Origin: Rhizobiaceae bacterium
Lineage (GTDB): Bacteria > Pseudomonadota > Alphaproteobacteria > Rhizobiales > Rhizobiaceae
Reading direction: 5' to 3'
DNA length: 37,910 nt
Assembly (NCBI GenBank): GCA_027484835.1
Contig: JAIXSF010000149.1
Span: 1 to 37,910, forward strand
Positions 1,482 to 37,910 of this stretch are shown here, piece by piece (position 1 is the stretch's first letter; every line of letters begins with the position of its first letter). The notes below the pieces were generated by a model. That model saw only the letters and a program-made list of their open reading frames with translations, was not told the DNA's origin and made no database searches. The position numbers were made by a program, and so were the translations under genes.

Positions 1482-1508
1482 TTCCGGGTACTTCCTGATA
1501 AACGAACG

Positions 1509-5837: not shown

Positions 5838-6579
5838 CTCTCACTCCCAGCAGTTCCAACTCAGGTTCATTCATCGCACCAGCCCGCTTTCCGAACGGCT
5901 GCGGTCCGCAACAAGTATGGCGCCTCACCGACGCTATGTTTTGGTCGCCACCATTACGAGCCATTTGAGCTTTCGTAACACAGCGTTTCTTGTAAGGAAA
6001 CATGTGTTACAAACAATCACATGACGAAATCAACGAGATGTGGGGCCCTAGACACTAGCTTTCGAAGCAAAGGTTCGGCCTAACGCCGATAAGCGGAAAG
6101 GTTGGCGACCACGACCGGTTGGCCACTCCTCCACAGTTCCAGGCGCAAGGAATACGGCTCGTATCCGCTACACTCCTGGCGCGTGGTGTGTCTCTGGTTG
6201 TTTCAGGTGGCGCGGAGAGCTTATCTACCAAAAAAAGCACACAAAATTGCGAGAGCTTAGCGAGTTGTTGCGCGACTGTTTCCAATGATGTAAACATGTT
6301 TCGGAGGAAGCAAAAGGATAACGCCATCAGCAACACGGAGGCCGCAAAACAAAATCGGCTCCGAGAGATGTTGAAAGGATATCGAGGAAACGGAGGACGA
6401 GTGCTTTGGGATGGGGCTCTTGTCCAGAACCCGCAAGGATTACAATGACTCTCCTTCAATCGAGAAACAGATCGCTGTCTTCAGCCCAATCCGCACCTGG
6501 CTTGGCAAAGCTTGCACCGCCTCCGGTTCCCGCAGGTACCGCGCAGTCGAAAATCGTGGCGACTTGGGGAGGCGACAAA

Positions 6580-7125: not shown

Positions 7126-7231
7126 GTTTCTTGTCAGCACAGACGCTGTTCGCCGTGACGATCGCCAAAACATGAAGCCCGGTCGGGGCCGGCCTTCGCT
7201 GGCCCCGATCGGTAAAGCTCGGATGCATGCG

Positions 7232-8014
7232 TCACCGACCGAGGGATGTTGCGGCTTTTTCAATCCCGACGGCAATCACTTCCGCCATTTCCGAGACGGC
7301 GGATGAGTCATGGATCAGATCGTTTCGGACCTCGATGTAGGCGTTCGGAACGGCGATTGACAGACCATGCCGATCCAATGTGAACCAGTCGCTATCGGCA
7401 AAACTGTAGGGTTGGTTTTCCTCTACCGTAAACCGACGCTGAACGTCCATCGCCTGAATCAGAGGCAATGCAAGGCGGCCGTCACACTTCCACATGACAC
7501 CGATTTGACATGATCTGTAGACCGCCTCCCACACCGGCGAGAAGGAATGGATAGAGACGATCAATTTGCCGATGGGCCGTTCGCCTTCCAATAGATCTTC
7601 CAGGACACGCTCGACCGGAGATCTTGCGATCCTCTCCCGCCGGCACCTTTCCTCATCCGAAATATGCACGTTAGCCGGCACCGGAATGCCCCCCATATCG
7701 GGGCGAATGCAGCTAGGATCAGTGGCCTTGCGATTGTAATCGAGAAACAGCCTCGAATAGTTGGCAAGTACCGCTGTGGCTCCGAGGCGGTCCGCTACGG
7801 CGACCGTTAACTCCCTTGAGCCGATATCATGTGCGTAGTGAGTCTCGAAAAAGGCATCGTGCAAACCGAGGCCCCTCCAAGCAGCCGGGACTTGACTGCC
7901 CCCATGTTCACATAGCACCACGATGTCCGGGCGCCTCGCACCTTCAAGTACCGAAACCGCATCACTTGCGTAGGATGCGATCTCGGCTTCGCTCAACGTG
8001 ACGGGCTGGCTCAT
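7232..8014 (-). CDS. N-formylglutamate amidohydrolase family protein
   Basis: 260 aa; CEHGGSQVPAAW, HYAHDIGSRELTVAVADRLGATAVLANYSRLFLDYNR, SIHSFSPVW typical of the family. Confidence 0.85.
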   Translation of the reverse strand: MSQPVTLSEAEIASYASDAVSVLEGARRPDIVVLCEHGGSQVPAAWRGLGLHDAFFETHYAHDIGSRELTVAVADRLGATAVLANYSRLFLDYNRKATDPSCIRPDMGGIPVPANVHISDEERCRRERIARSPVERVLEDLLEGERPIGKLIVSIHSFSPVWEAVYRSCQIGVMWKCDGRLALPLIQAMDVQRRFTVEENQPYSFADSDWFTLDRHGLSIAVPNAYIEVRNDLIHDSSAVSEMAEVIAVGIEKAATSLGR

Positions 8015-9393
8015 TGCGGATTCCGGATATGAAACGACTTAACGTCCGTAACGCCGTAAAGACCTTCCTTGCCGTTTCCGCGGCCGAGTCCGGACATCTT
8101 CTGTCCACCCCACGGAAGATAGAGGTCAGCATGATCGCAACGATTGACGAAGACCGTACCGGCGTCCAGTTGATCCACAATCTGGAGGCCGGCATCGACG
8201 TCACGGGTCCACACGCTGGCCGTGAGCCCATATTGGTTGTCGTTCATCAGACGCACGGCTTCGTCATCGCTCTTTACGGTCTGCACGCAGGCAACGGGGC
8301 CGAAAGTCTCCTCCTGCATCACTGTCATCGTCCCGTCGACGTCGGTTAGAAGCGTCGGGGCAATGTAGCAATAAGCGTCTTTGACACCTGAGAGATTGAG
8401 TGGTTCCTCGGAATAGGCGGTTGCTCCCTTCATCAACGCGTCGGAAATTTGGCTGCGGATCAGTTCCGCTGCCGACTTCTTCACGACTGGCCCGACGGTT
8501 GCGTTGGGGTCGAGCGGGTTGCCAACCTTGTACTTCTTCATTTCCTGCTTGAAGCGAGCGAGGAACTGGTCGCGGATCGCCTCGTGAACATAGATGCGCT
8601 CGACGGAGCAACAGGACTGACCGGCATTTGAGAAGCAACCATCCGCGATATCCGTGACCGCCTGTTCGATATCCGCGTCGGCGCGCACATATGCTGGGTC
8701 TTTTCCGCCGAGCTCCAGATGGACGTGGGTGAGTGTCCCTGCGGCCGAGCGGTGGATGGAAAGTCCACCTGCGACAGAGCCGATGAAGTTGACCCCCTTC
8801 ATCCTGCCGGAGCGGATGATGCGATCGACCTGATCATGGCTCAGTTCCAGAACCTGAAACACACCTTCAGGTCCGCCGATTGTCTCATAGGCTTCCCGGA
8901 TGATCCGACCGACGTCGACGGTCTGCGCTGCATGCTTCAGGATTACGGCATTACCGCCGAGAAGAGGGGTCACGATCAGCCACGGAAGCAGTCCCACAGG
9001 ATAATTCCACGGCGCGATGGAAAGATGGACACCCTGGGGACTGCGGCGCGTGAACCGTTTGATCGAGGCATCGGAAGGATAAGGGTCGTCGCCGATCGCG
9101 TTGAGCGCCTCGATCTGGGTCACAGTGACGGCCTTGAAGCGCTGGGTTTCGTCGGCTTGCGCCACCGGACGGCCAATCGACAAGGTCAACGCGCGAGAAA
9201 GCTCATCCTTCCGACGGATGAGTTCATCGGCGAGAGCGATGACCAGCCTAGCACGCTCGTCCTTGGAGGAATTCCGCCAAGTTTCAAATGCCGACTCCGC
9301 TTTTGCAAGCGCCGTGTCAACGGCCAAGTCGCTGGCGGTGTCGACTGAAAGAATCTTCGATCCATCAATCGGGGAAACAACCTCGATGGGCAT
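8011..9393 (-). CDS. Aldehyde dehydrogenase (NAD-dependent)
   Basis: Start taken at MPIEVVSPIDGSK (ORF extends to 9471); APWNYPVGLLPWLIVTPLLGGNAVILKHA, HLELGGKDPAYV, NAGQSCCSVERIYV, QEETFGPVACVQTV. Confidence 0.9.
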   Translation of the reverse strand: MPIEVVSPIDGSKILSVDTASDLAVDTALAKAESAFETWRNSSKDERARLVIALADELIRRKDELSRALTLSIGRPVAQADETQRFKAVTVTQIEALNAIGDDPYPSDASIKRFTRRSPQGVHLSIAPWNYPVGLLPWLIVTPLLGGNAVILKHAAQTVDVGRIIREAYETIGGPEGVFQVLELSHDQVDRIIRSGRMKGVNFIGSVAGGLSIHRSAAGTLTHVHLELGGKDPAYVRADADIEQAVTDIADGCFSNAGQSCCSVERIYVHEAIRDQFLARFKQEMKKYKVGNPLDPNATVGPVVKKSAAELIRSQISDALMKGATAYSEEPLNLSGVKDAYCYIAPTLLTDVDGTMTVMQEETFGPVACVQTVKSDDEAVRLMNDNQYGLTASVWTRDVDAGLQIVDQLDAGTVFVNRCDHADLYLPWGGQKMSGLGRGNGKEGLYGVTDVKSFHIRNPQ

Positions 9394-9548
9394 TGTGCTC
9401 TCTCCTATCACAAATGTGTTGATATGGTCAGTTATGTTTCGTATAAAGCAACACGTTTCCAACAGCAACACGATTCTGCAACGAAATTGTTGTTTCGCAA
9501 CGGGGCTCTTGGTGGCGACTTCTCAAACGCGAAAAAGAGGGAGTTTAC

Positions 9549-10301
9549 ATGATCAAGTTTGATTTCAGCGGCCGCGTCGCCATCGTGACCGGCGCTGGCG
9601 GGGGGATGGGGCTGTCGCTCGCCGAGGGGCTGCTTGCGGCCGGTGCGTCGGTCCTGGCGATCGACGTCAAGGAACAGCCGGAAGCACTCAAAGATGGCGC
9701 CAAATGCGTCTACGCCAAAGGCGATCTAACCGACGCAAAGTTCGTCAATGATGCCGTCGATGCGGCATACAAGAAGTTTGGCCGCATCGACTATCTCGCC
9801 AACATCGCCGGCGTGCTCTGGTTTGGCAAGGACGTCTCCCTTCTCAATATAGACCTCGATATCTGGGACAAGGTGATGGATATCAACCTGAAGTCCATGG
9901 TGCATACCATCAAGGCCGCTGTGCCCTACATGCGAAAGTCGGGCGGTGGCTCCATGGTCCACTTTGCAACGGTGCAGTGCCTCCGTGGCGATACTGCGCC
10001 GCAAGATGCCTACGTGGCATCGAAAGCTGGTGTCGTCGCGATCTCCAATTCCATCGCGATGCAGCTCTCCGCTGAGGGCATTCGATCCAATGTCATTCAT
10101 CCGGGAATCACACACACGCCGATGCAGGCTCGCTGGGATTCCCCTGAGAAGCTGAAGAACGCATCCGACTATGTGCCGATGAAGAAGGTCGGCCAGCCGG
10201 AGGACATGGCCAACGCGGCGATGTTCCTGCTTTCCGACGCTGCCGGATATATCACCGGCACCAGCCTCATCGTCGATGGCGGCCTCATGCTCAAGTACTG
10301 A
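9549..10301 (+). CDS. Short-chain dehydrogenase/reductase (SDR)
   Basis: 250 aa; VTGAGGGMGLSLAEGL, NIAGVLWFG, YVASKAGVVAISNSIAMQLSAEGIRSNVIHPG, YITGTSLIVDGGL. Confidence 0.92.
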   Translation: MIKFDFSGRVAIVTGAGGGMGLSLAEGLLAAGASVLAIDVKEQPEALKDGAKCVYAKGDLTDAKFVNDAVDAAYKKFGRIDYLANIAGVLWFGKDVSLLNIDLDIWDKVMDINLKSMVHTIKAAVPYMRKSGGGSMVHFATVQCLRGDTAPQDAYVASKAGVVAISNSIAMQLSAEGIRSNVIHPGITHTPMQARWDSPEKLKNASDYVPMKKVGQPEDMANAAMFLLSDAAGYITGTSLIVDGGLMLKY

Positions 10302-10404
10302 GCATGACCTGTGGTCCGAGGCGACCCGATTTGGTCGCCTCGGCGGTCGAATGTCGTTTTTAGCGTGGGCGATTGCCGACGGCCTACAAGAGGGAAATGC
10401 TTCC

Positions 10405-11910
10405 ATGGATCAAAAAAGTGCATCTGCAGGCGCCGAAATCTGGCGTTCTCGCGCAGCGGACTTGAAGATAGAAGGTCGTGCGCTCATCGATGGCGAGATG
10501 ACCAGAGCGACGGACGGAGCCAGTTTCGATTGTCTTTCTCCGATTGACGGGCGGTTGCTTGCCCAAGTTTCATCGGGTGGCGCTGCTGATATTGACCGGG
10601 CCGTCCGGGCTGCACGCGCGGCGTTCGAGGATCGCCGGTGGGCGGGGCAAGCGCCGGCTGCGCGCAAGCGTATCCTCCAGCGTTTTGCCGCGCTGCTGCG
10701 GGAAAACCTCGAGGAGCTTGCCCTTCTTGAATCACTCGACATGGGCAAGCCGATCTCAGCGGCTCTATCTGTCGACGTAAACGCGACGGCCCGTTGCTAC
10801 GATTGGTATGCAGAGGCAATCGACAAGGTTTACGATCAGATCGCTCCCACCGCGGATCAGGATCTCGCCCTCATTACCCGCGAACCACTCGGTGTTGTCG
10901 GCGCAATCGTTCCATGGAATTTCCCGATGCTGACCGCCGCGTGGAAGACCGCGCCGGCGCTGGCCACCGGCAATTCGGTCGTCCTGAAGCCGGCGGAACA
11001 GTCGCCATTGACGGCAATCCGAATGGGGCAGATCGCACTGGAAGCAGGCATTCCGCCTGGGGTATTCAACGTGGTGCCCGGATTCGGGCATACAGCGGGT
11101 AAAGCTCTCGCCAGCCACATGGACGTCGACGGTATTTTCTTCACGGGTTCGACCTCGACCGGCCGGCTGCTCATGGAATATGCTGGCAAGTCCAACCTGA
11201 AGAAGGTTGGTCTGGAACTTGGCGGGAAAAGCCCGAACATCATCCTGTCGTCCTATGCAGATATCGAGAAGGCGGCCATCACAGCGGCTGAAAGCATGTT
11301 CGCCAATCAGGGTGAAGTCTGCATCGCTCCTTCGCGACTGATTGTGGAGCGACCGATTCACGACAAGGTCGTGGAGATAATCGCCGAGTTTGCAAAGAAC
11401 AGGCAACCGTCTGACCCGCTCGATCCAGCAACGAATATGGGCGCGCTGGTGGATCTGCGCCACGCAGATCGCGTCATGAGCTACATCGAAACCGCGAAGG
11501 CCGAGGGGGCCAGAGTGGCTGCTGGCGGAACCCGCGCCCTGGTGGAGAGCGGCGGGGCATATGTAGCTCCTACGATCTTCGACAATGTCACAAACAACAT
11601 GAAGGTCGCTCGGGAAGAGATATTCGGTCCGGTTCTCTCGGTCATCTCTGTCGATAGCGCCGACGAGGCCGTAGCGGTCGCGAACGACAGCCCTTACGGG
11701 CTTGCCGCCGCTGTCTGGACGGATCGCCTCTCAGACGCTCACAAGGTCGCCAGGGCGCTTCGAAGTGGGATCGTCTATGTCAACTGCTACGACGCTTGCG
11801 ACATGACGACACCGTTCGGTGGATACAAGCAGTCCGGCAACGGCCGGGACAAGTCGCTGCATGCCCTCGACGAGTACACCGAGTTGAAGACGACCTGGGT
11901 GAGGCTCTGA
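10405..11910 (+). CDS. Aldehyde dehydrogenase (PuuC-like, aminoaldehyde type)
   Basis: Likely start MDQKSASAGAEIW at 10405; VPWNFPMLTAAWKTAPALATGNSVVLKPAEQSPLTA, LELGGKSPNIIL, NQGEVCIAPSRLIV, EEIFGPVLSVI. Confidence 0.9.
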   Translation: MDQKSASAGAEIWRSRAADLKIEGRALIDGEMTRATDGASFDCLSPIDGRLLAQVSSGGAADIDRAVRAARAAFEDRRWAGQAPAARKRILQRFAALLRENLEELALLESLDMGKPISAALSVDVNATARCYDWYAEAIDKVYDQIAPTADQDLALITREPLGVVGAIVPWNFPMLTAAWKTAPALATGNSVVLKPAEQSPLTAIRMGQIALEAGIPPGVFNVVPGFGHTAGKALASHMDVDGIFFTGSTSTGRLLMEYAGKSNLKKVGLELGGKSPNIILSSYADIEKAAITAAESMFANQGEVCIAPSRLIVERPIHDKVVEIIAEFAKNRQPSDPLDPATNMGALVDLRHADRVMSYIETAKAEGARVAAGGTRALVESGGAYVAPTIFDNVTNNMKVAREEIFGPVLSVISVDSADEAVAVANDSPYGLAAAVWTDRLSDAHKVARALRSGIVYVNCYDACDMTTPFGGYKQSGNGRDKSLHALDEYTELKTTWVRL

Positions 11911-11942
11911 CCTATGAATGCCCTTAACCCCATGTCGGACCA

Positions 11943-12788
11943 ATGACGATGAGAATACTTATTGCAGAAGGAAACATGCATGCCTCCAGACAGAGATCCA
12001 GGGAGATCGGAGGCTCTACACCCGGCGAAGGCTATGGAGATGTCATCACGGCGCTTTGTCCGTCGATTGAGATCGACATCTACAATCTGCCGGATGCCGG
12101 CGAGAAACCGCCGAAACCGATCGATGTATATGATGGCATCGTGTTAACCGGTTCGTCGCTGACGATCTATGAGGATCGTCCGGAGGTCCGCCGCCAGATA
12201 GAGTTTGCGCAAGAGGTGTTCGCATGTGGCGTCCCCTTCTTCGGATCATGCTGGGGACTTCAGGTTGCGACTGTTGCCGCTGGCGGTGAGGTTCTTCGAA
12301 ATCAGCGTGGCCGGGAGGTGGGCTTCGCCAGAGCTATTCGCCTGACCTCCGAGGGGATTAGCCATCCGCTGCACGATGGAAGACCCGTCACCTTCGATGC
12401 GCCGGCAGTGCATGCGGATCATGTGACGCGCCCGGCCGATGGCACTATCGTTACGGCGTCAAATAGCGTCAGTGATGTTCAGGCGGCTGAGATATCCTAC
12501 AAGAACGGCACTTTCTGGGGAGTGCAATACCACCCTGAATTTTCGCTGAAGGATATCGCAGACGTTCTCGTCCGATACGCTCCGGTGATCGTTGATGAGG
12601 AAAAGTTCTTCGAGGATCCGCAGCAACTCGCCGCCTATGCAGGCAACTTGCGACTGCTTCATGACGATCGGGAACGGCGTTCGATTTCTTGGCAATACGC
12701 AATCGGCAAGGACCTGCTTGATGACCGCGTGCGGTTAACGGAGATCGCCAACTGGTTAAGGGTCAAAGTTGGGGCCGCCGTTCATTAA
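11943..12788 (+). CDS. Class I glutamine amidotransferase-like protein (GMP-synthase-type GATase domain)
   Basis: 281 aa; nucleophile elbow FFGSCWGLQVA and GVQYHPEFS His/Glu motif. Confidence 0.87.
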   Translation: MTMRILIAEGNMHASRQRSREIGGSTPGEGYGDVITALCPSIEIDIYNLPDAGEKPPKPIDVYDGIVLTGSSLTIYEDRPEVRRQIEFAQEVFACGVPFFGSCWGLQVATVAAGGEVLRNQRGREVGFARAIRLTSEGISHPLHDGRPVTFDAPAVHADHVTRPADGTIVTASNSVSDVQAAEISYKNGTFWGVQYHPEFSLKDIADVLVRYAPVIVDEEKFFEDPQQLAAYAGNLRLLHDDRERRSISWQYAIGKDLLDDRVRLTEIANWLRVKVGAAVH

Positions 12789-13175
12789 GTCATCGCACAC
12801 TCTCGGTTTCGAACATAGGCTACTACGCGGTGTTACGATGCGAGATGTCCACGAGTACACACAAGTTCTGTCACGGAAGAATCTGATGAACAATAACTTC
12901 TTGCAGGCGGTGATGTGCCGCGCGGCACCAACTTTCCTGTTTCTCAACGGATTAAGTTCCCCGCCCCCTGGGCCAACTTGCCTGTCGTCTGAACGGCGAC
13001 AGGCGCTTTCTTCCGCGGGCAGTCGCAGACCGGTGGGATGCGGGCGCATTTTTGCCCGCTGGCTACGAAGCTTTGCGACGTAGGCTAGATAATAGCTGAG
13101 AATGCCAGTGGCAACCGCTGTAAGTCCCTACGGTCTCCGAGACCACATGTTCATTAAGTCATTGAGGAGTCCGAC

Positions 13176-16100
13176 TTGCCCATATCCAAGATCCTAGTCG
13201 CCAATCGATCCGAAATTGCCATTCGCGTGTTCCGCGCGGCCAATGAACTTGGCTTGAAGACGGTTGCGATATGGGCGGAAGAGGACAAACTGTCCCTCCA
13301 TCGATTCAAGGCAGACGAGAGTTATCAGGTCGGTCGCGGTTCGCATCTCGCCCGTGAACTCGGGCCGATCGAGAGCTATCTGTCGATCGACGAGGTAATC
13401 CGGGTTGCGAAGCTCTCCGGAGCCGACGCGATCCACCCGGGCTACGGCCTGCTCTCCGAGAGTCCCGAGTTTGTCGATGCCTGCAACGACGCAGGCATTA
13501 CTTTTATCGGGCCGCGCGCGGAAACCATGCGCCAGCTCGGCAACAAGGTGGCGGCGCGCAACCTTGCGATCTCGGTCGGGGTTCCGGTCGTTCCGGCCAC
13601 TGAGCCGCTGCCCGACGACATGGTGGAAGTCGCGCGCATGGCCGAGGAGATCGGCTATCCGGTGATGCTCAAGGCATCCTGGGGCGGCGGCGGCCGCGGC
13701 ATGCGTGCGATCCGTGACCCGAAGGACCTGGCCCGCGAAGTCACCGAGGCGAAGCGCGAAGCGATGGCGGCGTTCGGCAAGGACGAGGTCTATCTCGAGA
13801 AGCTGGTCGAGAAGGCCCGCCACGTCGAGAGCCAGATCCTCGGTGACATGCACGGCAAAGTGGTCCATCTCTTCGAGCGCGACTGCTCAATCCAGCGCCG
13901 CAACCAGAAGGTCGTCGAACGCGCTCCCGCTCCCTATCTCAGCGAGGCACAGCGGCAGGAGCTCGCCTCCTACTCGCTGAAGATCGCCCAGGCCACGAAC
14001 TATGTGGGTGCCGGCACCGTCGAATACCTGATGGATGCCGACAGCGGTAAGTTCTACTTCATCGAGGTCAACCCGCGCATCCAGGTCGAGCACACGGTCA
14101 CCGAAGTCGTGACCGGCATCGACATCGTCAAGGCGCAGATCCACATCCTCGACGGACATGCGATCGGTACGGCGGAATCCGGCGTTCCGGCCCAGTCGGA
14201 CATCCGGCTGAACGGCCATGCGCTGCAGTGCCGCATCACCACCGAGGACCCCGAGCACAACTTCATCCCGGACTACGGCCGCATCACCGCCTATCGTGGT
14301 GCGACAGGCTTCGGCATCCGCCTCGACGGCGGCACGGCCTATTCGGGCGCAGTCATCACCCGTTACTACGATCCGCTGCTCGAAAAGGTCACGGCCTGGG
14401 CGCCGACGCCGCAGGAGGCGATCCAGCGCATGGACCGTGCGCTGCGCGAATTCCGTATCCGCGGCGTGGCGACCAACCTCACCTTCCTCGAGGCGATCAT
14501 CGGTCACCCGAAATTCCGCGACAACAGCTACACCACCCGGTTCATCGACTCGACGCCTGAGCTTTTCGCCCAGGTGAAGCGCCAGGACCGTGCAACGAAG
14601 CTCCTGACCTATCTTGCCGACGTGACCGTCAACGGGCATCCGGAAGCCAAGGGTCGCCCGCGTCCGCCCGAGGACGCGGCCGAGCCCGTCGTACCCTACA
14701 TCGACGCGCCGATCCCGGACGGTACCAAGCAGCTGCTCGACAAGCTCGGCCCGGTCAAATTCGCCGAATGGATGCGCAATGAGACCCGCGTGCTCGTTAC
14801 CGACACGACGATGCGCGATGGCCATCAGTCGCTGCTGGCGACCCGCATGCGCACCTATGACATCGCGCGTGCCGCAGGTGCCTACGCGCGGGCCCTGCCG
14901 AACCTCCTTTCGCTCGAATGCTGGGGCGGTGCGACCTTCGACGTATCCATGCGCTTCCTGACGGAGGACCCGTGGGAGCGTCTCGCGCTCGTGCGCGAGG
15001 GTGCGCCGAACCTGCTGCTGCAAATGCTGCTGCGCGGGGCGAACGGCGTCGGTTACAAGAACTATTCCGACAACGTCGTGAAGTATTTCGTGCGCCAGGC
15101 CGCAGCCGGCGGCATCGATCTTTTCCGCGTGTTCGACTGCCTGAACTGGGTCGAGAACATGCGCGTCTCGATGGATGCCGTGGCGGAGGAGAACAAGCTC
15201 TGCGAGGCAGCCATCTGCTATACGGGTGACATCCTCAATTCCGCCCGGCCGAAATACGATCTCAAGTACTATACCGCGCTGGCGGCCGAACTGGAAAAGG
15301 CCGGTGCGCATATCATCGCGGTCAAGGACATGGCCGGCCTCCTGAAGCCCGCTGCGGCGCGGATCCTGTTCAAGGCGCTCCGCGAAGCGACCAGCCTGCC
15401 GATCCATTTCCACACGCACGACACCTCGGGCATTTCGGCCGCGACCGTTCTTGCCGCCGTCGAGGCGGGCGTCGATGCGGTCGATGCGGCGATGGACAGC
15501 CTGTCGGGCAATACCTCGCAGCCGTGTCTTGGCTCGATCGTCGAGGCGCTGCGCGGTTCGGAACGCGATCCGGGTCTCGACCCCTACTGGATCCGTCGCC
15601 TGTCGTTCTACTGGGAGGCCGTGCGCAACCAGTATGCCGCCTTCGAAAGTGACCTCAAGGGGCCGGCTTCCGAAGTCTACCTGCACGAAATGCCGGGCGG
15701 CCAGTTCACCAATCTCAAGGAGCAGGCCCGTTCGCTCGGGCTGGAGACCCGCTGGCACGAAGTGGCCCAGGCCTATGCCGATGCAAACCAGATGTTCGGC
15801 GACATCGTCAAGGTGACGCCGTCCTCCAAGGTGGTCGGCGACATGGCGCTGATGATGGTCAGCCAGGACCTGACGGTCGAAGACGTCGTCGATCCGGCCA
15901 AGGACGTGTCCTTCCCGGAATCGGTCGTCTCGATGCTCCGCGGCGATCTCGGCCAGCCCCCGATCGGATGGCCGGAGGGTCTGCAGAAGAAGGCGTTGAA
16001 GGGCGAACAGCCCTACACCGTGCGTCCGGGCTCGCTGCTCGAAGACACCGACCTCGAAGCCGAGCGCAAGGCGATCGAGGAGAAGCTCGACCGCAAGATC

Positions 16101-16634
16101 AGCGACATCGAGCTCGCTTCCTACCTGATGTATCCGAAGGTCTTCACCGACTATGCGCTGGCCGCCGACACCTACGGTCCGGTCTCCGTGCTGCCGACGC
16201 CCTACTACTTCTACGGTCTGCCGGCCGGCGAGGAACTGTTCGTCGATCTCGAAAAGGGCAAGACGCTTGTCGTCGTCAACCAGGCCATGGGTGCCACCGA
16301 CGACAAGGGCATGGTGACGGTGTTCTTCGAACTCAACGGCCAGCCGCGCCGCATCAAGGTCCCGGATCGCGCCCATGGTGCGGCCGGCAGCGCGGCACGC
16401 CGCAAGGCCGATCCGGCGAATGCCGGTCATGTCGGCGCGCCGATGCCGGGCGTCATCTCGACCGTGGCCGTGGCTGCGGGCCAGTCGGTCAAGGCCGGTG
16501 ACGTGCTGCTGTCGATCGAGGCGATGAAGATGGAGACGGCGCTGCACGCCGACCGCGACGGTACGATCTCGGAAGTGCTGGTCAAGGCCGGCGACCAGAT
16601 CGACGCGAAGGACCTGCTTGTTTCTTGGAGTTGA
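13176..16634 (+). CDS. pyc: Pyruvate carboxylase
   Basis: 1152 aa; biotin carboxylase (ASWGGGGRGMR, EVNPRIQVEHTVTE), carboxyltransferase (VTDTTMRDGHQSLLATRMRT), biotinyl motif IEAMKMETALHA. Confidence 0.97.
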   Translation: MPISKILVANRSEIAIRVFRAANELGLKTVAIWAEEDKLSLHRFKADESYQVGRGSHLARELGPIESYLSIDEVIRVAKLSGADAIHPGYGLLSESPEFVDACNDAGITFIGPRAETMRQLGNKVAARNLAISVGVPVVPATEPLPDDMVEVARMAEEIGYPVMLKASWGGGGRGMRAIRDPKDLAREVTEAKREAMAAFGKDEVYLEKLVEKARHVESQILGDMHGKVVHLFERDCSIQRRNQKVVERAPAPYLSEAQRQELASYSLKIAQATNYVGAGTVEYLMDADSGKFYFIEVNPRIQVEHTVTEVVTGIDIVKAQIHILDGHAIGTAESGVPAQSDIRLNGHALQCRITTEDPEHNFIPDYGRITAYRGATGFGIRLDGGTAYSGAVITRYYDPLLEKVTAWAPTPQEAIQRMDRALREFRIRGVATNLTFLEAIIGHPKFRDNSYTTRFIDSTPELFAQVKRQDRATKLLTYLADVTVNGHPEAKGRPRPPEDAAEPVVPYIDAPIPDGTKQLLDKLGPVKFAEWMRNETRVLVTDTTMRDGHQSLLATRMRTYDIARAAGAYARALPNLLSLECWGGATFDVSMRFLTEDPWERLALVREGAPNLLLQMLLRGANGVGYKNYSDNVVKYFVRQAAAGGIDLFRVFDCLNWVENMRVSMDAVAEENKLCEAAICYTGDILNSARPKYDLKYYTALAAELEKAGAHIIAVKDMAGLLKPAAARILFKALREATSLPIHFHTHDTSGISAATVLAAVEAGVDAVDAAMDSLSGNTSQPCLGSIVEALRGSERDPGLDPYWIRRLSFYWEAVRNQYAAFESDLKGPASEVYLHEMPGGQFTNLKEQARSLGLETRWHEVAQAYADANQMFGDIVKVTPSSKVVGDMALMMVSQDLTVEDVVDPAKDVSFPESVVSMLRGDLGQPPIGWPEGLQKKALKGEQPYTVRPGSLLEDTDLEAERKAIEEKLDRKISDIELASYLMYPKVFTDYALAADTYGPVSVLPTPYYFYGLPAGEELFVDLEKGKTLVVVNQAMGATDDKGMVTVFFELNGQPRRIKVPDRAHGAAGSAARRKADPANAGHVGAPMPGVISTVAVAAGQSVKAGDVLLSIEAMKMETALHADRDGTISEVLVKAGDQIDAKDLLVSWS

Positions 16635-16679
16635 GGCGATCGGAGACAGACGGCATACCCGTGCTTCTGCGACTCGTAT

Positions 16680-16870
16680 CCCTTCAGCGCGGAATCACGC
16701 TCTACGGTGCGGCTATCCAAGACGTGTTTCCTCCAGACATTGTCGCGGTTCCGATCTCCGATCCTCACGCGAGTTTTGAGATCAGCGTTGCGTGGGACGC
16801 TCGCCGCCATGTACCGATGATTAGGCAGTTCGTGAGCGCTGTAGTCGAATTCTGCTCAAATGGCGGACGC
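16680..16870 (+). pseudogene. LysR-family regulator C-terminal remnant
   Basis: Within ORF 16625..16900: RGITLYGAAIQDVFPPDIVAVPISDPHASFEISVAWDARRHVPMIRQFVSAVVEF resembles the end of a LysR substrate-binding domain; no HTH upstream (pyc lies directly before). Confidence 0.55.
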
Positions 16871-17052
16871 CGTACTCCAACTGATACGTCGGGCAGATAG
16901 ACCGGGTTGTGACCAGCTCTGTCAGCGAGCTCTGACATCACGCATTTTCTGCTTGTCATAGTCAGCAGCATCCAATGGTGACCTGCCCGCACTACACTTT
17001 TGTCGTGCCAAAGGAGGCCCTTCGAGAAGTTGCCTGGGCGGGTCTCCAGAAT

Positions 17053-17517
17053 TCAACGTCGGTTTCGATCTTGGCTTGCCAATACATTGCGGATTGAGAA
17101 ACTGGAATGAATCCGCTGGACGCCGGGCAACTTCGATAGGATTTCTTTATGAATGCCTTCAAACTCGCCCGCATTCGCGACGTCCACCCGAAGAAAGTAG
17201 TCCGAGCCGCCAGTCATCAAATAACATTCGCGGACCTCTGGGTGCTTTCGGACGGCAGCTTCGAAGCGATCCAAATAGTCTTCGGTCTGCTTTTCTAGAG
17301 TGATGTTGATGATGACGGCGATTGTAGCCTCTGCGTTCGACGCATCGACTAGTGTCGTGTAGCCGCGGATGATCCCGGCATGTTCCAAGTTTTTTATTCG
17401 TCTCAAGCACGCGGAGGGGGAAAGCCCCACTTCGGCAGCGAGATCGACATTGCTCATGCGAGCGTTCAGTCGAAGGAACCGCAAAATGTTTCGGTCGATC
17501 GCGTCGATTGAGGACAT
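17053..17517 (-). CDS. Lrp/AsnC family transcriptional regulator
   Basis: Start at MSSIDAIDRNILRFLRLNARMSNVDLAAEVGLSPSACLRRIKNLEHAGIIRGY; C-terminal RAM domain ECYLMTGGSDYFLRVDV. Confidence 0.93.
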   Translation of the reverse strand: MSSIDAIDRNILRFLRLNARMSNVDLAAEVGLSPSACLRRIKNLEHAGIIRGYTTLVDASNAEATIAVIINITLEKQTEDYLDRFEAAVRKHPEVRECYLMTGGSDYFLRVDVANAGEFEGIHKEILSKLPGVQRIHSSFSIRNVLASQDRNRR

Positions 17518-17639
17518 TGCAGAATATTCCAAAAACTCGCTGATAATTGCGAAATATGGACAAATAGGCAATAAAATACTGCACAGTGGCAGGAAATTTG
17601 TCAATCGTTTCAATAGACTTCTGGAAACGAGGGCAAGGC

Positions 17640-18773
17640 ATGAACAGTGTGATTCCGCACTTCTGTATTCGCGAGATGACGAGTGCAGTTGGAGCATCCG
17701 GCTATCTTACCATCGATCTCGGCGGCCTCCGCCGTAACTACGAGAAGCTTTCCGCCTCGGTTTCCCCGGCGAAGGCGGCCGCAGTGATCAAGGCCGACGC
17801 CTACGGACTAGGCGCCACGAAAGTCGCAGCCACGCTTTTTGCCGCCGGCTGCCGGCATTTCTTCGTCGCTCACTTCTGCGAGGCGACCGAGATCAAGCCA
17901 CACCTTTCCGAGGAAGCCCGCATCTTTGTCCTCAACGGTCTTCAGCCGGGCAACGAACCACCAGCTGCGGAGGCCGGCATCATTCCGGTGCTGAACTCGA
18001 TGGAACAGCTGCACCGATGGACCGCGACCGCACGCGCGCTCAGTCATCGTCTGCCCGCCGTACTGCAATTCGACACCGGCATGTCGCGGCTGGGCTTTCC
18101 GCCGGAAGAACGCGCCCTTCTGGCCGAAGAACTGCGTAACAATCAGGACATCGAAATCCTGTTTATCATGAGCCATCTGGCCTCGGCCGACGACGCAGAT
18201 AGCCAGCAGAACGGCGACCAGCTCTCGGAAATGCGCCAGATCGCTGAAGAGTTTCCTGCATTCAGCGTCTGCTTTGCCAATTCAGGCGGTGTCTTCCTCG
18301 GCAGCGAATATCACGGCACGCTCGTTCGCCCTGGTATCGTCCTTTATGGCGGCGCGCCGAACAACGGCGGAACCAATTCGATGGAACCAGTTGTCCGCCT
18401 CGACGTGGCGGTGATCCAGACCCGGACCGTTCCCGCCGAGGCTCGGGTCGGCTATGGCGCAACACATGTCACCAAGACCGAGGCACGGCTTGCGACGCTT
18501 GCTGCCGGCTATGCCGACGGGCTGCCGCGCAGCCTCAGCGATCGCGGCGCCGTCTACTACAATGGCGTGCGCCTGCCGATCGTCGGCCGCGTATCGATGG
18601 ACAGCATAACGATCGATATTTCCGCCCTGCCCGCCGGCACGCTTTCACTGGGCAGCCTGGTCGAAGTCATCGGCCCGAGCCAGACGCTGGAGATGCTGGC
18701 GGCAGACGCCGGAACGATCTCCTACGAAATGCTGACCAGTCTCGGCCATCGCTACCGTCGCCAATACCGCTAA
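17640..18773 (+). CDS. dadX: Alanine racemase
   Basis: Start MNSVIPHFC at 17640; AVIKADAYGLGATKVA PLP-lysine motif, QFDTGMSRLGF, VSMDSITIDIS. Confidence 0.93.
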   Translation: MNSVIPHFCIREMTSAVGASGYLTIDLGGLRRNYEKLSASVSPAKAAAVIKADAYGLGATKVAATLFAAGCRHFFVAHFCEATEIKPHLSEEARIFVLNGLQPGNEPPAAEAGIIPVLNSMEQLHRWTATARALSHRLPAVLQFDTGMSRLGFPPEERALLAEELRNNQDIEILFIMSHLASADDADSQQNGDQLSEMRQIAEEFPAFSVCFANSGGVFLGSEYHGTLVRPGIVLYGGAPNNGGTNSMEPVVRLDVAVIQTRTVPAEARVGYGATHVTKTEARLATLAAGYADGLPRSLSDRGAVYYNGVRLPIVGRVSMDSITIDISALPAGTLSLGSLVEVIGPSQTLEMLAADAGTISYEMLTSLGHRYRRQYR

Positions 18774-18800
18774 CAATTCTCTTCCGTCATTGAGGCATTC

Positions 18801-20051
18801 ATGAAAGTCATCGTACTTGGCGCCGGCGTAGTCGGCGTGACGTCCGCCTATCAGCTCGCGAAGGCCGGACATGAGGTCATCGTCGTTGACCGCCAGCTCG
18901 GCCCGGCACTCGAAACAAGCTTCGCCAATGCCGGCGAAGTATCGTTCGGCTATTGCTCCCCCTGGGCCGCACCCGGTATTCCGCTGAAAGCCATGAAGTG
19001 GCTGTTCATGGAACACGCGCCGCTGATCCTGCGTCCGAAACTCGACATGGCCATGCTGTCGTGGATGTTCAAGATGCTGGCGAACTGCACCACGGAGCGC
19101 TACGCGATCAACAAGAGCCGCATGCTCCGCCTCGCCGACTACAGCCGGACGGCTCTTGCCGCCGTGCGCGAGGAAACGGGCCTTGCCTATGACGAGCGCA
19201 TGCAGGGAACGCTGCAGCTTTTCCGCACGCAGGACCAGCTCGACGCTTCCGCCAAGGACGTGAAGGCGCTTGCCGCAGACGGCATCCCATATGAAGTTCT
19301 GGATCCGGATGGCTGCATTCGGGTTGAACCGGCTCTCCGGCACGTCCGCGAAAAGATCGTCGGGGGTCTGCTGACGCCAAAGGACGAAACAGGAGACTGC
19401 TTCAAGTTCACCAATGCGCTGGCCGAAAAGGCCGCGGCACTTGGCGTCTGGTTCCGGTATGGCACCACCGTCAAGGGCTTCGACATCGAAAGCGGCCGCG
19501 TACGTGGCATCGTGACGGACGGAGCGCCGGTGCACGGCGATGCCGTGGTCGTGGCGCTCGGGAGCTATTCGCCGTTGCTGCTCAAGCAGGTCGGCATCAA
19601 GCTACCGGTCTATCCGGTCAAGGGTTACTCCCTGACGATCCCGATCACGGATGCCACCCGCGCACCGGAATCGACCGTCATGGACGAAACCTATAAGATC
19701 GCCATCACCCGCCTCGGCGACCGCATCCGCGTCGGCGGTATGGCCGAAATCTCAGGCTATACCAACGACCTCGGTGCTACCCGCCGCCGCACGCTCGAGC
19801 ATTCCGTAACCGATCTCTTCCCCGGTGGGGACGTGTCCCAGGCGCTCTTCTGGTCCGGTCTTCGTCCAATGACGCCGGATGGCACACCCGTTATCGGTCC
19901 GACAAAAGTCCAGGGACTGTTCCTCAACGCTGGCCACGGCACGCTCGGCTGGACGATGAGCTGCGGCTCCGCCCGCGTCATCAGCGATCTGGTCAGCGGC
20001 CGCAAGGCTGAAATCGATGCAACCGACCTCGCGATCAGCCGCTACGCCTGA
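18801..20051 (+). CDS. dadA: D-amino acid dehydrogenase small subunit
   Basis: 416 aa; [35 protein letters not shown] motif; [46 protein letters not shown]. Confidence 0.95.
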
Positions 20052-32303: not shown

Positions 32304-33494
32304 ATGAGCAATATGCTGCCCAACCGTTTTGACATTGAGATTGCCCAGCAGGGGTCTAAGATCTCAAGCGCCTTGCATATGTTGCGCAGCCAACAGTATC
32401 CGCCTGACGCTAGCAAGGGGCTGCGCAAGTTTCAGCTTGCGGAAGTTGCGGACTTCATGGGCGTGACCCAAACACATCTCAGGCAGCTCCATGCGGACGG
32501 AAAAGGACCGGCGATCGAGTCCATCGGCGGGCGCCGATACTATACCGCCAATCAGATGCTGGAGCTTCGCGACTATCTTGAGGCCAACAAGAAGTCTGAC
32601 AAGCGATATTACGTCCCCAGGCGGCGGGAAGGCGAATCGATGCAGGTCGTATCGGTCGTCAACTTCAAGGGAGGAAGCGGCAAGACCACGACCGCGGCGC
32701 ATCTGGCGCAGTACCTCGCCCTCACCGGGCACCGAGTGCTGGCGGTCGATCTTGACCCCCAGGCATCCCTCACCTCCCTCTTCGGTATCCAGCCGGAGCT
32801 TGATGACACAGCGTCCCTGTACGAGGCACTCCGTTTTGACGACGAACGCAAGCCGATCAGTGATGTGATCCAACCCACCAACATTCCGGGCCTTGACGTG
32901 GTGCCGGCGAACCTAGTGCTACAGGAATACGAATACGACGTGCCGCTCGCGATCTCGTCGAAGAAGGGAGAAGACGGGCGGTTGTTCTATATGCGGATCG
33001 CCAGCGCCCTGAAGCAGGTCGACGACAAGTACGACGTGGTTGTCATCGATTGCCCCCCACAGCTGGGCTACTTGACGATCACCGCGCTCATGGCCTCGAC
33101 GGGCATCCTCATCACCATCCATCCTCAGATGCTGGACATCATGTCGATGAGCCAGTTTCTCATGATGCTTGGAGGGATCATGGGTCCGGTCGCGGAGGCT
33201 GGGGCTGAAATGCGGGTGCAGTGGTTCCGATATCTCATTACCCGGTTTGAGCCCACCGACATACCGCAGGCGCAGATGGTCGGGTTCATGCAGTCGATGT
33301 TCGCACAGCAGATGCTGAGGAACCACGTGCTTAAATCCACGGCGATCTCCGATGCGTCTATCAAGAAGCAGACCCTGTACGAGGTTGAGCGGGGCGAGTT
33401 CGTCCGCGCAACCTACGACAGGGCGATGGAGAGCTTGAACGCCGCCAACGCCGAAATCGTGGAGCTCATCCATGGTGTCTGGGGGAGAAAATGA
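32304..33494 (+). CDS. repA: Plasmid partitioning protein RepA (ParA-type ATPase)
   Basis: 396 aa; NFKGGSGKTTTAAHLAQYLALTGHRVLAVDLDPQASLTSLFG; first gene of repABC. Confidence 0.97.
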   Translation: MSNMLPNRFDIEIAQQGSKISSALHMLRSQQYPPDASKGLRKFQLAEVADFMGVTQTHLRQLHADGKGPAIESIGGRRYYTANQMLELRDYLEANKKSDKRYYVPRRREGESMQVVSVVNFKGGSGKTTTAAHLAQYLALTGHRVLAVDLDPQASLTSLFGIQPELDDTASLYEALRFDDERKPISDVIQPTNIPGLDVVPANLVLQEYEYDVPLAISSKKGEDGRLFYMRIASALKQVDDKYDVVVIDCPPQLGYLTITALMASTGILITIHPQMLDIMSMSQFLMMLGGIMGPVAEAGAEMRVQWFRYLITRFEPTDIPQAQMVGFMQSMFAQQMLRNHVLKSTAISDASIKKQTLYEVERGEFVRATYDRAMESLNAANAEIVELIHGVWGRK

Positions 33495-33578: not shown

Positions 33579-34574
33579 ATGTCCCGTGAAAATCCATTCG
33601 CCAAGCTGGACATGGCGGCGATTTCGGCGAGCCAGACGCCGACGAAACCTGGTTATGGCATGACAGGCGCCGCCAAGACTGTAGTTCGTTCCATCGAGGA
33701 CATGGCGGAGAACACCAAGAAGCTGATGGAAGGCGAGGTGATCGTCGACCTCGATCCACAATCGATCGACGCTTCCTTTGTGGCCGATCGTCTTTCCGAC
33801 GACGACGAGGAATTTCAGGAGTTGCTCGAGGCTATCAAGCAGTCGGGACAGACAACCCCCATCCTCGTGCGGCCGAGTTCAACAGACGCCAAACGATATA
33901 TGGTGGTGTTCGGTCATCGCCGCCTGAAGGTCGCTCGCGAGCTTGGGGTGCCGGTGAAGGCCATCGTAAAGAAGCTCGACGATATCACCTCGGCGATTGC
34001 GCAAGGACAGGAGAACGCAGCCCGTTCGAATCTGTCGTTCATAGAGCGCGCCTATTTCGCTCAAAACCTTGTCGCATCGGGAATGACGAAGGAGACGGTC
34101 CGTTCGTCTCTCGCCATCGATGAAGCAATGCTCTCGAAAATGCTTGCGGTTGTCGAAGCGATTCCTGCACCAGTAATTCAAGCGCTAGGCGCGTCGAAGA
34201 AGATCGGGCGCGACAAATGGCTCAGCCTTCGACAACTGGTTCTCGCCCCTGCTCTCTCCAAGGTTGCCGTCGAGCATGCCAGCTCAGCCGAGTTTCAGAA
34301 GCTTCCCGAAGCCGAGCGCTTCGATGTGCTGCACGACTACTTGAGGCGATATAAGGCCAAGTCTTCTGCAAAAAAGCCCAAAACAAGTGTTGTGCTAAGG
34401 GATTGGAATTCACGCGACCGCGCACTGAATGTCGTGGTGAAGCCAAAGGCGAAGAAAGTTGCCATCGAGCTTTCGAACGCCGAAGCCAAGCCCTTCACAG
34501 ACTGGCTAACTTCTCGCATGGACCGTTTGTACGATGAGTACAAGGGGTCCAAAAACGAAAGCAACGGAGACTGA
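33579..34574 (+). CDS. repB: Plasmid partitioning protein RepB (ParB family)
   Basis: 331 aa; MVVFGHRRLKVARELGVPVKAIVKKLDD...ENAARSNLSFIERAYFAQNL ParB motifs. Confidence 0.96.
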   Translation: MSRENPFAKLDMAAISASQTPTKPGYGMTGAAKTVVRSIEDMAENTKKLMEGEVIVDLDPQSIDASFVADRLSDDDEEFQELLEAIKQSGQTTPILVRPSSTDAKRYMVVFGHRRLKVARELGVPVKAIVKKLDDITSAIAQGQENAARSNLSFIERAYFAQNLVASGMTKETVRSSLAIDEAMLSKMLAVVEAIPAPVIQALGASKKIGRDKWLSLRQLVLAPALSKVAVEHASSAEFQKLPEAERFDVLHDYLRRYKAKSSAKKPKTSVVLRDWNSRDRALNVVVKPKAKKVAIELSNAEAKPFTDWLTSRMDRLYDEYKGSKNESNGD

Positions 34575-34584
34575 AACGCAAAAG

Positions 34585-34637
34585 AAAAAGGCCCCCAAGC
34601 GGTTAAACCGTGGAAGCCTCTCTCGTCATCTCTAGCA
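34585..34637 (-). ncRNA. Counter-transcribed antisense RNA (incA/ctRNA) in repB-repC intergenic region
   Basis: Minus strand: TTGACT (34672-34667), 17-nt spacer, GATTCT (34649-34644); ends in an imperfect hairpin aggcttccacggtttaaccgcttgggggcct followed by tttttctttt. Position conserved in repABC plasmids. Confidence 0.78.
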
Positions 34638-34732
34638 GGATCGAGAATCGCATTTCCCGGAATCACAGTCAAGAGTCTTGGCGCCATTTTGGTGAGCGGA
34701 TTTCTTTTGCCTGAAGAAAGGTGAGAGAGAAA

Positions 34733-35977
34733 ATGCAGACGGGACATGTGACGACGCCTTTTGGGCGGCGGGCGATGTCGCTCGCCCTGGTCAAGAGACA
34801 GATGGCGGTCGAGGAACCGGATCAAGGCGCACGAATTGAGAAGTGGAAAGTGTTTCGGGATGTCTGCGAGGCGCGAGAACGCCTTGGGCTTAAGGATCGG
34901 GCCTTGGCCGTCCTCGATGCTCTCCTGACGTTCTATCCTCATGCCGAACTTGGTTCAGCGAATGGGCTTGTTGTTTTTCCTTCCAATGCGCAGCTATCGG
35001 TGCGCGCTCATGGGATCACCGATAGCACGCTGCGGCGACAGCTCGCAGCACTGGTCGATGCCGGGCTGATAGTTCGCCGCGACAGTCCTAACGGCAAGCG
35101 ATATGCCCATCGAAATCGCCAAGGCGAAGTCGAACAGGCGTTCGGTTTCGATCTGACGCCACTTCTTGCTCGCGCCACGGAACTCGCTCTTCTTGCTCAG
35201 GCTGTTGCGGCGGAACGAATGCGCTTCCGAAGGGCGAAGGAAGCTCTGACGATCTGCCGGCGAGACGTACGTAAACTCGTCACCGCGGCTATGGAGGAGG
35301 GTGCAGCAGGCAACTGGGCTCAGGTTGAAACGGAGTATGCCGCGATTCTCGGACGACTTCCGCGCAACCCGAACCCGGCTCAAGTTGAAGCCACGCTCGG
35401 CGACATGCAGCTCCTTCGAGAAGAAGTGCTCAACATTTTGGAAAAAGAGCTGAAAATGAAAAATATGAATGGCAATGACATTCAGGATGACGGCCACATA
35501 CAGAATTCAAAAACCGAATCTATCTATGAACTTGAACCTAGCTCTAGAAAAGAGCAGGGCGGAAGCGTGGCGGAAGAACCTCACGTCCGGAGGGAGCCGA
35601 ACGGAGGAGAGAAGGCGAAGCCTGAACCGATAAAGGCCTTCCCACTTGGAATTGTCCTTCGTGCCTGCCTGCAGATTGCCGACTATGGCCCCGGCGGACG
35701 TATAGAAAACTGGCGCGATCTCATGAAGGCGGCCGTCGTGGTGCGTTCCATGCTGGGTGTCAGCCCTTCAGCCTATGAGGATGCGTGCAACGTGATGGGG
35801 CCGGAAAATGCCGCGGTGGCTATGGCCTGCATTCTCGAACGATCGAATTTCATAACGTCAGCGGGCGGCTACCTGCGCGACCTGACCAGACGCGCCGAGC
35901 GAGGCGAGTTTTCGCTGGGTCCAATGCTGATGGCGCTTTTGAGGGTCAACGTCGGGGGAACACAAAGAACGGCCTAG
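34733..35977 (+). CDS. repC: Replication initiator RepC
   Basis: Start MQTGHVTTPFGRRAMSLALV at 34733 (ORF opens with GTG at 34721); SNAQLSVRAHGITDSTLRRQLAALVDAGLIVRRDSPNGKRYA. Confidence 0.96.
   Translation: MQTGHVTTPFGRRAMSLALVKRQMAVEEPDQGARIEKWKVFRDVCEARERLGLKDRALAVLDALLTFYPHAELGSANGLVVFPSNAQLSVRAHGITDSTLRRQLAALVDAGLIVRRDSPNGKRYAHRNRQGEVEQAFGFDLTPLLARATELALLAQAVAAERMRFRRAKEALTICRRDVRKLVTAAMEEGAAGNWAQVETEYAAILGRLPRNPNPAQVEATLGDMQLLREEVLNILEKELKMKNMNGNDIQDDGHIQNSKTESIYELEPSSRKEQGGSVAEEPHVRREPNGGEKAKPEPIKAFPLGIVLRACLQIADYGPGGRIENWRDLMKAAVVVRSMLGVSPSAYEDACNVMGPENAAVAMACILERSNFITSAGGYLRDLTRRAERGEFSLGPMLMALLRVNVGGTQRTA
35440..35550. other. AT-rich segment inside repC, candidate oriV
   Basis: Locally AT-rich stretch (gaaaaagagctgaaaatgaaaaatatgaatgg...) in an otherwise GC-rich gene; the repABC origin is known to lie within repC. 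Confidence 0.6.
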
Positions 35978-36359
35978 TGATCGGCCATATTGATTAGCCG
36001 TCCAAGCTGTTTGTCAGCAGGTTGCGTGTCACTTGTCAGCCGTTTTTTTGGGTAGTTTTCATTGCGATCACAGTGAGTTACCTGCGTTGAGGGTTCAATC
36101 TTTCGGAAAGGGGAGGGTTTCGAAATCCAAAGCTGAAAGCGCAGAGTGCAGCTGGTTCCGACAATTTATCGCAGTCCTTGGCGATGGTAATTGCGCAATT
36201 TCCAATCGTTGCGGATGAGGACAAACGATCGTTTGTGGACGCCTCTTGCACATGTGAACGCAAAACGATGCGCAATCCAGCTCAATTCTAACCATTTCGG
36301 TCATCAATTGCTGAAACCGAGATCGTACAAGTCGCTGGCCCTAGTATGAAACGATCGCG

Positions 36360-37703
36360 ATGGCCAACGGAAAACGACAGTATCGAACTTACCTCATTGA
36401 GCACCGCAACGCGCAAGATGAAGTGGTGAAAAGCTATGTAGGCGTAACCATTAGGTCTCTGGAAGACAGGTTGTCTGCGCACTTGCGGGAGGCCAGCCGC
36501 GCGAAGCGGAGCATATCGCCATACTCGTTGGGGCACGCCATTCGCCGGGAACTTCTTGCCGACCCGGAAAACGCTTCCAGGTTCTCCATCCGGCAACTCA
36601 GCATCCACGAGAGCCAAGCCGAAATGCTCGCGGATGAAACCATCTGGATTGAAAAACTGGGTACGATGGCGCCGAGCGGTTACAACCTCATGCCCGGGGG
36701 CAGAAGTGCGGGCGGTGTTGGCAACAGCCAAGCGATGGAGCTTTTCGTCGACGGCGCGCTGAAAACGTTTCCTTCAATCAAGCGGGCCGCGCACGCGCTC
36801 GCCGAGGCGGCCTCGATCGACCCAAAGAAATTTGCTGCCCGGGTCTACTTTCGACTTGGCAAAGGCTGGCCCATCGCCGAGGCGTTCGACCTCGAGCCCC
36901 ACGAGGATGGCAGAACGACCGTGCGTAGTCGTCGGGCTGCCGCGGCAGGTGTGCTCTTGGCCACGGCCCGTTCAAAGGACCATCGCGACTGGCTGAAAGC
37001 CAGACAGGCGTTGATCAAAAAGGGCAGCTTACTGCCTCATCCAAGGGAACCGGGCCTATTCGTCACGATCGATCAATTCATCGATATCAGCGGTCTGCCG
37101 AAATCCACAGTTACTCGTCGGCTCAAGCGGATCTGGCCGATCGAAAATTTGCCCTCCAAGGACGTGATACTAGCGCTCACCAAGAGAGAGGATCGACGCC
37201 GCATTTTTGAGTTTACACTCAACGGGGAGACTGTAAGGGCTGGCGTGAACGAGCTTGCGGCTCGCTTCGAAAGAGCCAAGGGAAACTCACGATCTGCGAT
37301 CAAGAAGCGGCTCGGGGCTCTTCCTGAACCTGCAAGCGAAGCCGAAATTCTTCAGGCGATTGGCGTTCTGCAGCGGACCAGCAAACGGGTGCTTGTATCC
37401 GCCCAAGCTGTCCCGGTCAGAAATCTTCTCATTGGCAAATGGTCGGTTTGCTATCAGTGCCAACTCAAGGAATTGCCGCGCCAAATGGATTTTGTTCGCT
37501 GGTTGTCGACTTTCATGTTTCCTTTGTTGGAGGGTGAAGATCGGCGAAAAGAAGAGCTGCGGCTACAAAAGACGGTGTCAGCGCTTGCCAAGAAAGGTCG
37601 TCAGCCGTGGGAAATCGCCGCTCTTATTGCGGGCGTGGAGGCGGTGGACGCCCCGGAGCAAGCGCAACAGCTCCCACAGGTGAAGGAGGAGATGGGGAGT
37701 TAA
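36360..37703 (+). CDS. GIY-YIG nuclease domain protein with C-terminal putative DNA-binding modules
   Basis: Residues ~8-114: YRTYLIEH..KSYVGVTIRSLEDRLSAHLREA...ETIWIEKLGTMAPSGYNLMPGG, as in GIY-YIG endonucleases; remainder has HTH-like repeats. Confidence 0.75.
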   Translation: MANGKRQYRTYLIEHRNAQDEVVKSYVGVTIRSLEDRLSAHLREASRAKRSISPYSLGHAIRRELLADPENASRFSIRQLSIHESQAEMLADETIWIEKLGTMAPSGYNLMPGGRSAGGVGNSQAMELFVDGALKTFPSIKRAAHALAEAASIDPKKFAARVYFRLGKGWPIAEAFDLEPHEDGRTTVRSRRAAAAGVLLATARSKDHRDWLKARQALIKKGSLLPHPREPGLFVTIDQFIDISGLPKSTVTRRLKRIWPIENLPSKDVILALTKREDRRRIFEFTLNGETVRAGVNELAARFERAKGNSRSAIKKRLGALPEPASEAEILQAIGVLQRTSKRVLVSAQAVPVRNLLIGKWSVCYQCQLKELPRQMDFVRWLSTFMFPLLEGEDRRKEELRLQKTVSALAKKGRQPWEIAALIAGVEAVDAPEQAQQLPQVKEEMGS

Positions 37704-37835
37704 GCTTCCCCGAAAGCTTTCGACACTTCGCGATTATACCGGGGCCTTCGGCGGCACGTTGGAGATCGTCGCGGATGTCGCGGGCATGCGTCACGGCTTA
37801 AACCTGAGTGGATTCGCTAATAGGGGAGGGGCAGT

Positions 37836-37910
37836 CTACAACCCCGCCGCTTTTGTGAGGTTAACCCGGAACCGGTCGCGCCGACGCTGGTAGCGACGGG
37901 TCATTTCGGC
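37836..37910 (-). CDS. C-terminus of a probable tyrosine recombinase/integrase (partial, runs off window)
   Basis: Minus-strand frame reads AEMTRRYQRRRDRFRVNLTKAAGL*, with the T..Y context of phage-type integrase C-termini. Confidence 0.45.
   Translation of the reverse strand, partial: AEMTRRYQRRRDRFRVNLTKAAGL

Follow-up and report, generated by a model that had tools for sequence, protein, structure and literature searches.

A rare, intact GIY-YIG endonuclease gene of probable homing type in a variable slot of a rhizobial repABC plasmid

Introduction

Free-standing GIY-YIG genes of the homing type are known mainly from phages, and the life cycle of a homing gene is comprised of gain, constraint and decay. 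The phage enzymes include SegA-G and MobE of T4 as well as proteins annotated as SegB in Enterococcus and Staphylococcus phages, in which an N-terminal GIY-YIG domain is followed by a modular DNA-binding tail and no intron is present. Similar catalytic domains occur in I-TevI and other GIY-YIG endonucleases of group I introns (TIGR01453). GIY-YIG proteins are also encoded by plasmids of the cyanobacteria Calothrix PCC 7716 and Tolypothrix PCC 7601. In addition, it was reported that Odn (origin-directed nuclease) of phage ICP1, a stand-alone member of the GIY-YIG superfamily that carries a fused DNA-binding domain, cuts the replication origin of a phage satellite (PMC8263062).

The gene described here is located on contig C92 of a Rhizobiaceae assembly (GCA_027484835.1; 512 contigs, 84% complete, 4.8% contamination). 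The entire contig of 37,910 nucleotides was analysed and is referred to below as the window. The window protein has the same catalytic set as the phage Seg/Mob-type enzymes, as well as their N-terminal GIY-YIG domain, modular tail and lack of an intron. However, the phage matches span aa 24-128, only the catalytic domain can be aligned and the tail sequences are unrelated; moreover, the window family resides on rhizobial plasmids and proteobacterial chromosomes, whereas Seg/Mob-type enzymes are found in phages. With regard to the group I intron enzymes, the likeness of the catalytic domain amounts to a weak TIGR01453 match (E=0.0017) below the family cut-off, and no intron is found at the window gene. 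The cyanobacterial proteins share GIY-YIG and a similar GW-type module with aa 24-163 of the window protein (31-33% identity), but they are 597-897 aa long and their GIY-YIG domain is internal, with other repeats around it. The DNA-binding domain of Odn resembles the RepA of its target, whereas the tail of the window protein showed no similarity to RepA, RepB or RepC of the window, and an Odn-type anti-replicon nuclease was rejected on the comparison with these three proteins.

The GIY-YIG Gene and Its Catalytic Domain

The features of the locus are listed in Table 1. The open reading frame starts with ATG, contains no internal stop and lies 382 bp downstream of repC; a promoter scan of the region gave no signal above chance. 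Residues Y26, G28, R37, H41, E93, G107, Y108 and N109 are invariant in an alignment of 24 sequences, and the catalytic set (Tyr and Gly of the YIG motif, Arg of helix 1, His, Glu and the C-terminal Asn) is complete in the window protein. A Pfam profile search gave no match to the window protein itself, while PF01541 was found in two full-length homologues (4.3e-8 and 9.6e-5, both above cut-off) and PHROG 314 (homing endonuclease) matched the window protein weakly (2.7e-5). An AlphaFold2 model of aa 1-182, for which the 24-sequence alignment served as input, reached a pLDDT of 87, with values of 90-98 over most of the GIY-YIG domain. The domain was modelled in the strand and helix order of GIY-YIG, beta-beta-alpha-alpha-beta-alpha, with one additional short helix before the third strand. 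Its best fold match in the PDB was the GIY-YIG domain of UvrC (1yd6; probability 0.69, TM 0.46); the E-value of this match was non-significant, and the GIY-YIG assignment thus rests on residues and profiles together. Judged from the sequence and the model, the GIY-YIG domain of the 447-aa product is real. The original prediction had read a GIY-YIG domain from the N-terminal motif and had named an AlphaFold model as a check; the invariant catalytic residues, the PF01541 matches in homologues and the predicted fold all agree with it.

Table 1. Features of the window around the GIY-YIG gene
Feature	Position	Strand	Remarks
repA	32304..33494	+	
repB	33579..34574	+	
repC	34721..35977	+	
Left flank	36085..36240	.	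Matches one end of contig C363 (same assembly) at 96.8% identity
16-bp perfect palindrome ACAAACGATCGTTTGT	36221..36236	.	Left boundary of the GIY segment
GIY-YIG endonuclease ORF	36360..37703	+	Intact, 447 aa
GIY-YIG catalytic domain, aa 1-119	36360..36716	+	Invariant residues in 24 sequences, AlphaFold2 model, fold match
Tail module 1, aa 126-175	36735..36884	+	Beta-hairpin plus helices, with GWPIAEAF as the last residues of the module
Tail module 2, aa 229-275	37044..37184	+	HTH; equivalent region of homologues matches HTH_psq and MerR
Tail module 3, aa 282-320	37203..37319	+	Beta-hairpin plus helices; moderate confidence
C-terminal module, aa 346-425	37395..37634	+	Beta-hairpin plus helices; moderate confidence
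XRE-type antitoxin 3'-end remnant	37714..37830	+	No longer open; directly after the GIY stop
repABC-associated tyrosine recombinase, C-terminus	37836..37910	-	24 codons plus stop; cut by contig end

The DNA-Binding Tail

The remainder of the protein was modelled with moderate confidence as a series of modules built of beta-hairpins and HTH-like helices, in line with the HTH-like tail modules that had been proposed. The region of homologues equivalent to module 2 matched HTH_psq (2.7e-4) and MerR (1.5e-3), a stretch like module 1 is present in the cyanobacterial GIY-YIG proteins, and the C-terminal module is conserved around QxxFVR in the full-length relatives (L021 and L022). A full-length model built from three sequences had a mean pLDDT of 65 and a pTM of 0.26, and all matches of a fold search with it were non-significant. 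Similarity among the modules was undetectable by sequence, and comparison of the tail with RepA, RepB and RepC of the window revealed no similarity to these three proteins. The suggested resemblance to homing endonucleases holds for this plan of a nuclease with a DNA-binding tail outside an intron or intein.

Distribution, Constraint and Decay

Close copies of the gene, a full-length and a truncated one, were found in 2 of the 72,556 plasmids searched, both from Sinorhizobium meliloti and both situated between repC and a site-specific recombinase. The copy of pSmeAK21a is 85% identical in DNA over the whole gene and carries five frameshifting deletions, one 30-base deletion and one in-register stop; that of pSymA in strain M162 (88% DNA identity) has one frameshift and is truncated after aa 169. 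Decay thus affects two of the five copies. The dN/dS values of the window gene against these two decayed copies are 0.23 and 0.21, which, together with the lesions, point to constraint through most of the divergence and breakage afterwards. The low dN/dS could alternatively be caused by a function beneficial to the host.

Intact, full-length relatives of 451 aa with the architecture of the window protein are encoded by Aureimonas sp. AU12 (39% identity) and Herbaspirillum sp. SJZ107 (38% identity), neither of which has rep genes near the gene. The Aureimonas gene is part of an island that holds an integrase, a RES-domain gene and further accessory genes close to tRNA-Phe and gyrB. Its integrase is not detectably related to that of the plasmid; a common integrase partner was therefore rejected, and the convergent GIY/integrase layout was treated as a coincidence. 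The Herbaspirillum gene is found among chromosomal genes of a 664-kb contig, where about 3.7 kb, consisting of the GIY gene and an S9 peptidase gene, separate an acyl-CoA synthetase-like gene from a SET-domain gene. In six relatives of this genome (L089-L094), no more than about 300 bp separate the same two flanking genes. Other relatives have different DNA between them, and no exact empty site was found. This interval (L022, 7950-11687) has the appearance of an insertion hotspot.

No further member was detected in partly overlapping samples of genomes from the family (398), the order (398) and the phylum (349). A class-level search of 385 genomes with a profile of GIY plus module 1 gave five weaker matches, all GIY-YIG-like proteins of other lengths or with poor tail coverage, and the viral contigs searched matched the GIY-YIG domain only. 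A whole-length scan of genome contigs, a method that depends on short identical peptides and may overlook members, also yielded none. Across the family, order, class and phylum genomes, no repC-linked homologue was found besides the two S. meliloti plasmids. No small partner gene is common to the neighbourhoods of the window, L021 and L022, and a toxin-antitoxin system was rejected for the lack of such a gene. The locus had also been put forward as a candidate for an undescribed system, which overstates the case for a single gene of known kind without a conserved partner. The gene is best read as a member of a sparse, mobile family.

The Host Plasmid and the Link to repABC

The repABC operon of the window is complete (TIGR03453, TIGR03454, NF040974), with a Ti-type traI/trb region upstream, and the plasmid is conjugative. 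The gene is indeed a neighbour of a plasmid replication locus, as had been noted. Its description as free-standing is likewise sound: the Rfam search returned solely the repC S-element and the ctRNA. These two elements of repABC plasmids (ctRNA at 34578-34623 on the minus strand, S-element at 34667-34735 on the plus strand, both above gathering scores) represent normal replication control. Elsewhere (420-20048), the window holds a metabolic cargo of a URO-D family protein, a class-III aminotransferase, two aldehyde dehydrogenases, a 1152-aa pyruvate-carboxylase-like protein, an alanine racemase and an FAD oxidoreductase.

Homology between the window and the S. meliloti plasmids begins at about 36245, shortly before the GIY gene, and extends into the recombinase in pSmeAK21a. 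The GIY segment shows 85-88% DNA identity among the three repC-adjacent copies, while repC of S. meliloti is about 66% identical to that of the window. As a like GIY segment lies beside an unlike repC, GIY and recombinase must have been exchanged together between unlike repABC replicons, and the three repC-linked copies are therefore not three independent associations. A specific link to repABC, which a neighbourhood survey had been proposed to reveal, is thus not borne out: three of the five copies are linked through one shared segment, and the two full-length members elsewhere lack it. The GIY gene is absent from 119 plasmids that match the repABC region of the window (barring the two S. meliloti records if these are included), and a search of plasmids with the repC-GIY spacer DNA gave no match. 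A variable slot that extends from repC to the tyrosine recombinase accounts best for the position of the gene, better than a role in replication would, and the gene is probably a passenger and not part of the replication system.

The Toxin-Antitoxin Slot and the Palindrome

In several repABC plasmids, the order is repC, a RelE/ParE toxin, an XRE antitoxin, a convergent recombinase, DUF1403 and ScpB, with variations; the slot after repC may hold Fic, ars genes, serine recombinases, hypothetical genes or toxin-antitoxin pairs. The window lacks the toxin as well as most of the antitoxin. With the palindrome on the left and the antitoxin remnant on the right, the GIY gene sits in the place of the toxin-antitoxin pair, bordered by a conserved site and the recombinase. 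The flanks are not those of a clean single insertion, as toxin-antitoxin coding sequence was also lost on the plasmid.

A counterpart of the palindrome precedes relE by about 100 bp in three toxin-antitoxin-bearing loci (L012, L075 and L079), and its arms show compensatory changes (ACAAACGATCGTTTGT versus ATAACCGATCGGTTGT). It was located at 3347 in L075, 3340 in L079, 4690 in L012 and 3341 in L080. In L075 and L079, it is flanked by relE and a divergent serine-recombinase gene and may be a res site or a toxin-antitoxin operator. Contig C363 (L008), which matches the left flank, has toxin-antitoxin genes and a recombinase/integrase and is devoid of GIY. It contains a perfect (3503-3518) and a degenerate (1283-1297) copy of the palindrome, with a 2.2-kb LysR/SDR/reductase cargo between them; this cargo is situated upstream of the relE/xre pair and is flanked as by attL/attR. 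The palindrome may thus serve repABC plasmids as a site at which cassettes integrate. Given the completeness and contamination of the assembly, C363 and C92 may come from different cells.

Homing and Its Alternatives

Taken as a whole, the locus is reasonably well explained as a free-standing GIY-YIG endonuclease that belongs with the homing enzymes (Seg/Mob-like) and occupies a variable plasmid slot, which we consider probable. The N-terminal domain is predicted to make a metal-dependent DNA cut at a site that would be chosen by the modular beta-hairpin/HTH tail. According to the usual scheme, DNA without the gene would be cut and then repaired from a copy bearing it, by which the gene and its flanks would spread; the target would probably lie within or close to the toxin-antitoxin/palindrome region of repABC plasmids. 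Cleavage, sequence specificity, target and homing are inferred. The data themselves show the domain with its intact catalytic set, the tail of several modules, full-length relatives in three genetic settings, the interruption of otherwise conserved DNA both in the plasmid slot and in the Herbaspirillum chromosome, past purifying selection and the decay of two copies. Gain, constraint and decay of the gene fit the cycle of a homing gene without proving it. The toxin-antitoxin-type allele of C363, with its near-identical left flank and in the same assembly, is uncut and speaks against homing, provided that both contigs come from one cell.

The loss of toxin-antitoxin coding sequence and the presence of a peptidase gene in the Herbaspirillum insert indicate that the gene may also be carried passively on other elements. 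In a stricter form, the palindrome would be a recombinase site in a hotspot of site-specific recombination, at which the gene arrived as passive cargo without the action of its own nuclease. The palindrome does bound the GIY segment, two copies enclose the cargo of C363, a serine-recombinase gene adjoins it in L075 and L079, and a tyrosine recombinase is nearby. However, the GIY segment has a single copy of the site, it ends on the right within the antitoxin gene instead of at a palindrome, the palindrome could be a toxin-antitoxin operator instead, and the Herbaspirillum insertion would be left unexplained; we assign this explanation a low probability. It seems similarly unlikely that the nuclease is a competition weapon or plasmid-maintenance factor which would cut incoming or sibling repABC plasmids, such as toxin-antitoxin-type alleles of the same slot. 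Odn sets the precedent of an origin being attacked by a nuclease of the GIY-YIG superfamily (PMC8263062), but it owes its specificity to a Rep-like domain, whereas the tail showed no similarity to RepA, RepB or RepC; rep genes are absent from the vicinity of two of the five relatives, a toxin-antitoxin-type allele persists in the same assembly, and plasmids with similar repABC lack the gene. These points stand against the location beside repC on a conjugative plasmid, the replacement of a toxin-antitoxin module and the purifying selection on the gene, all of which would suit competition. Quite unlikely is the particular version in which a sequence-specific nuclease took the place of the toxin-antitoxin module on the conjugative plasmid and cuts the toxin-antitoxin-type alleles of sibling plasmids, the slot beside repC being a site of alternative competition devices and the palindromic operator being inherited.

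A defence or DNA-repair nuclease serving host or plasmid, for instance in phage restriction, might be suggested by the Aureimonas island with its RES-domain and other accessory genes, but no full-length match to any defence family and no conserved partner genes were found, and this role appears highly improbable. A PADLOC match to mad1, which covers the HTH part only (25/60 positions, E about 1e-4), was rejected as a defence assignment.

Significance

The homing-type reading leaves a genuine, intact and rare GIY-YIG endonuclease gene, whose association with repABC is most likely incidental to the variable plasmid slot. A sparse family on rhizobial plasmids, in an integrase island and on a betaproteobacterial chromosome widens the range of such genes, and the gene comes with nameable alleles that lack it. 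If the toxin-antitoxin-type alleles are cut, selfish homing would be linked to plasmid competition.
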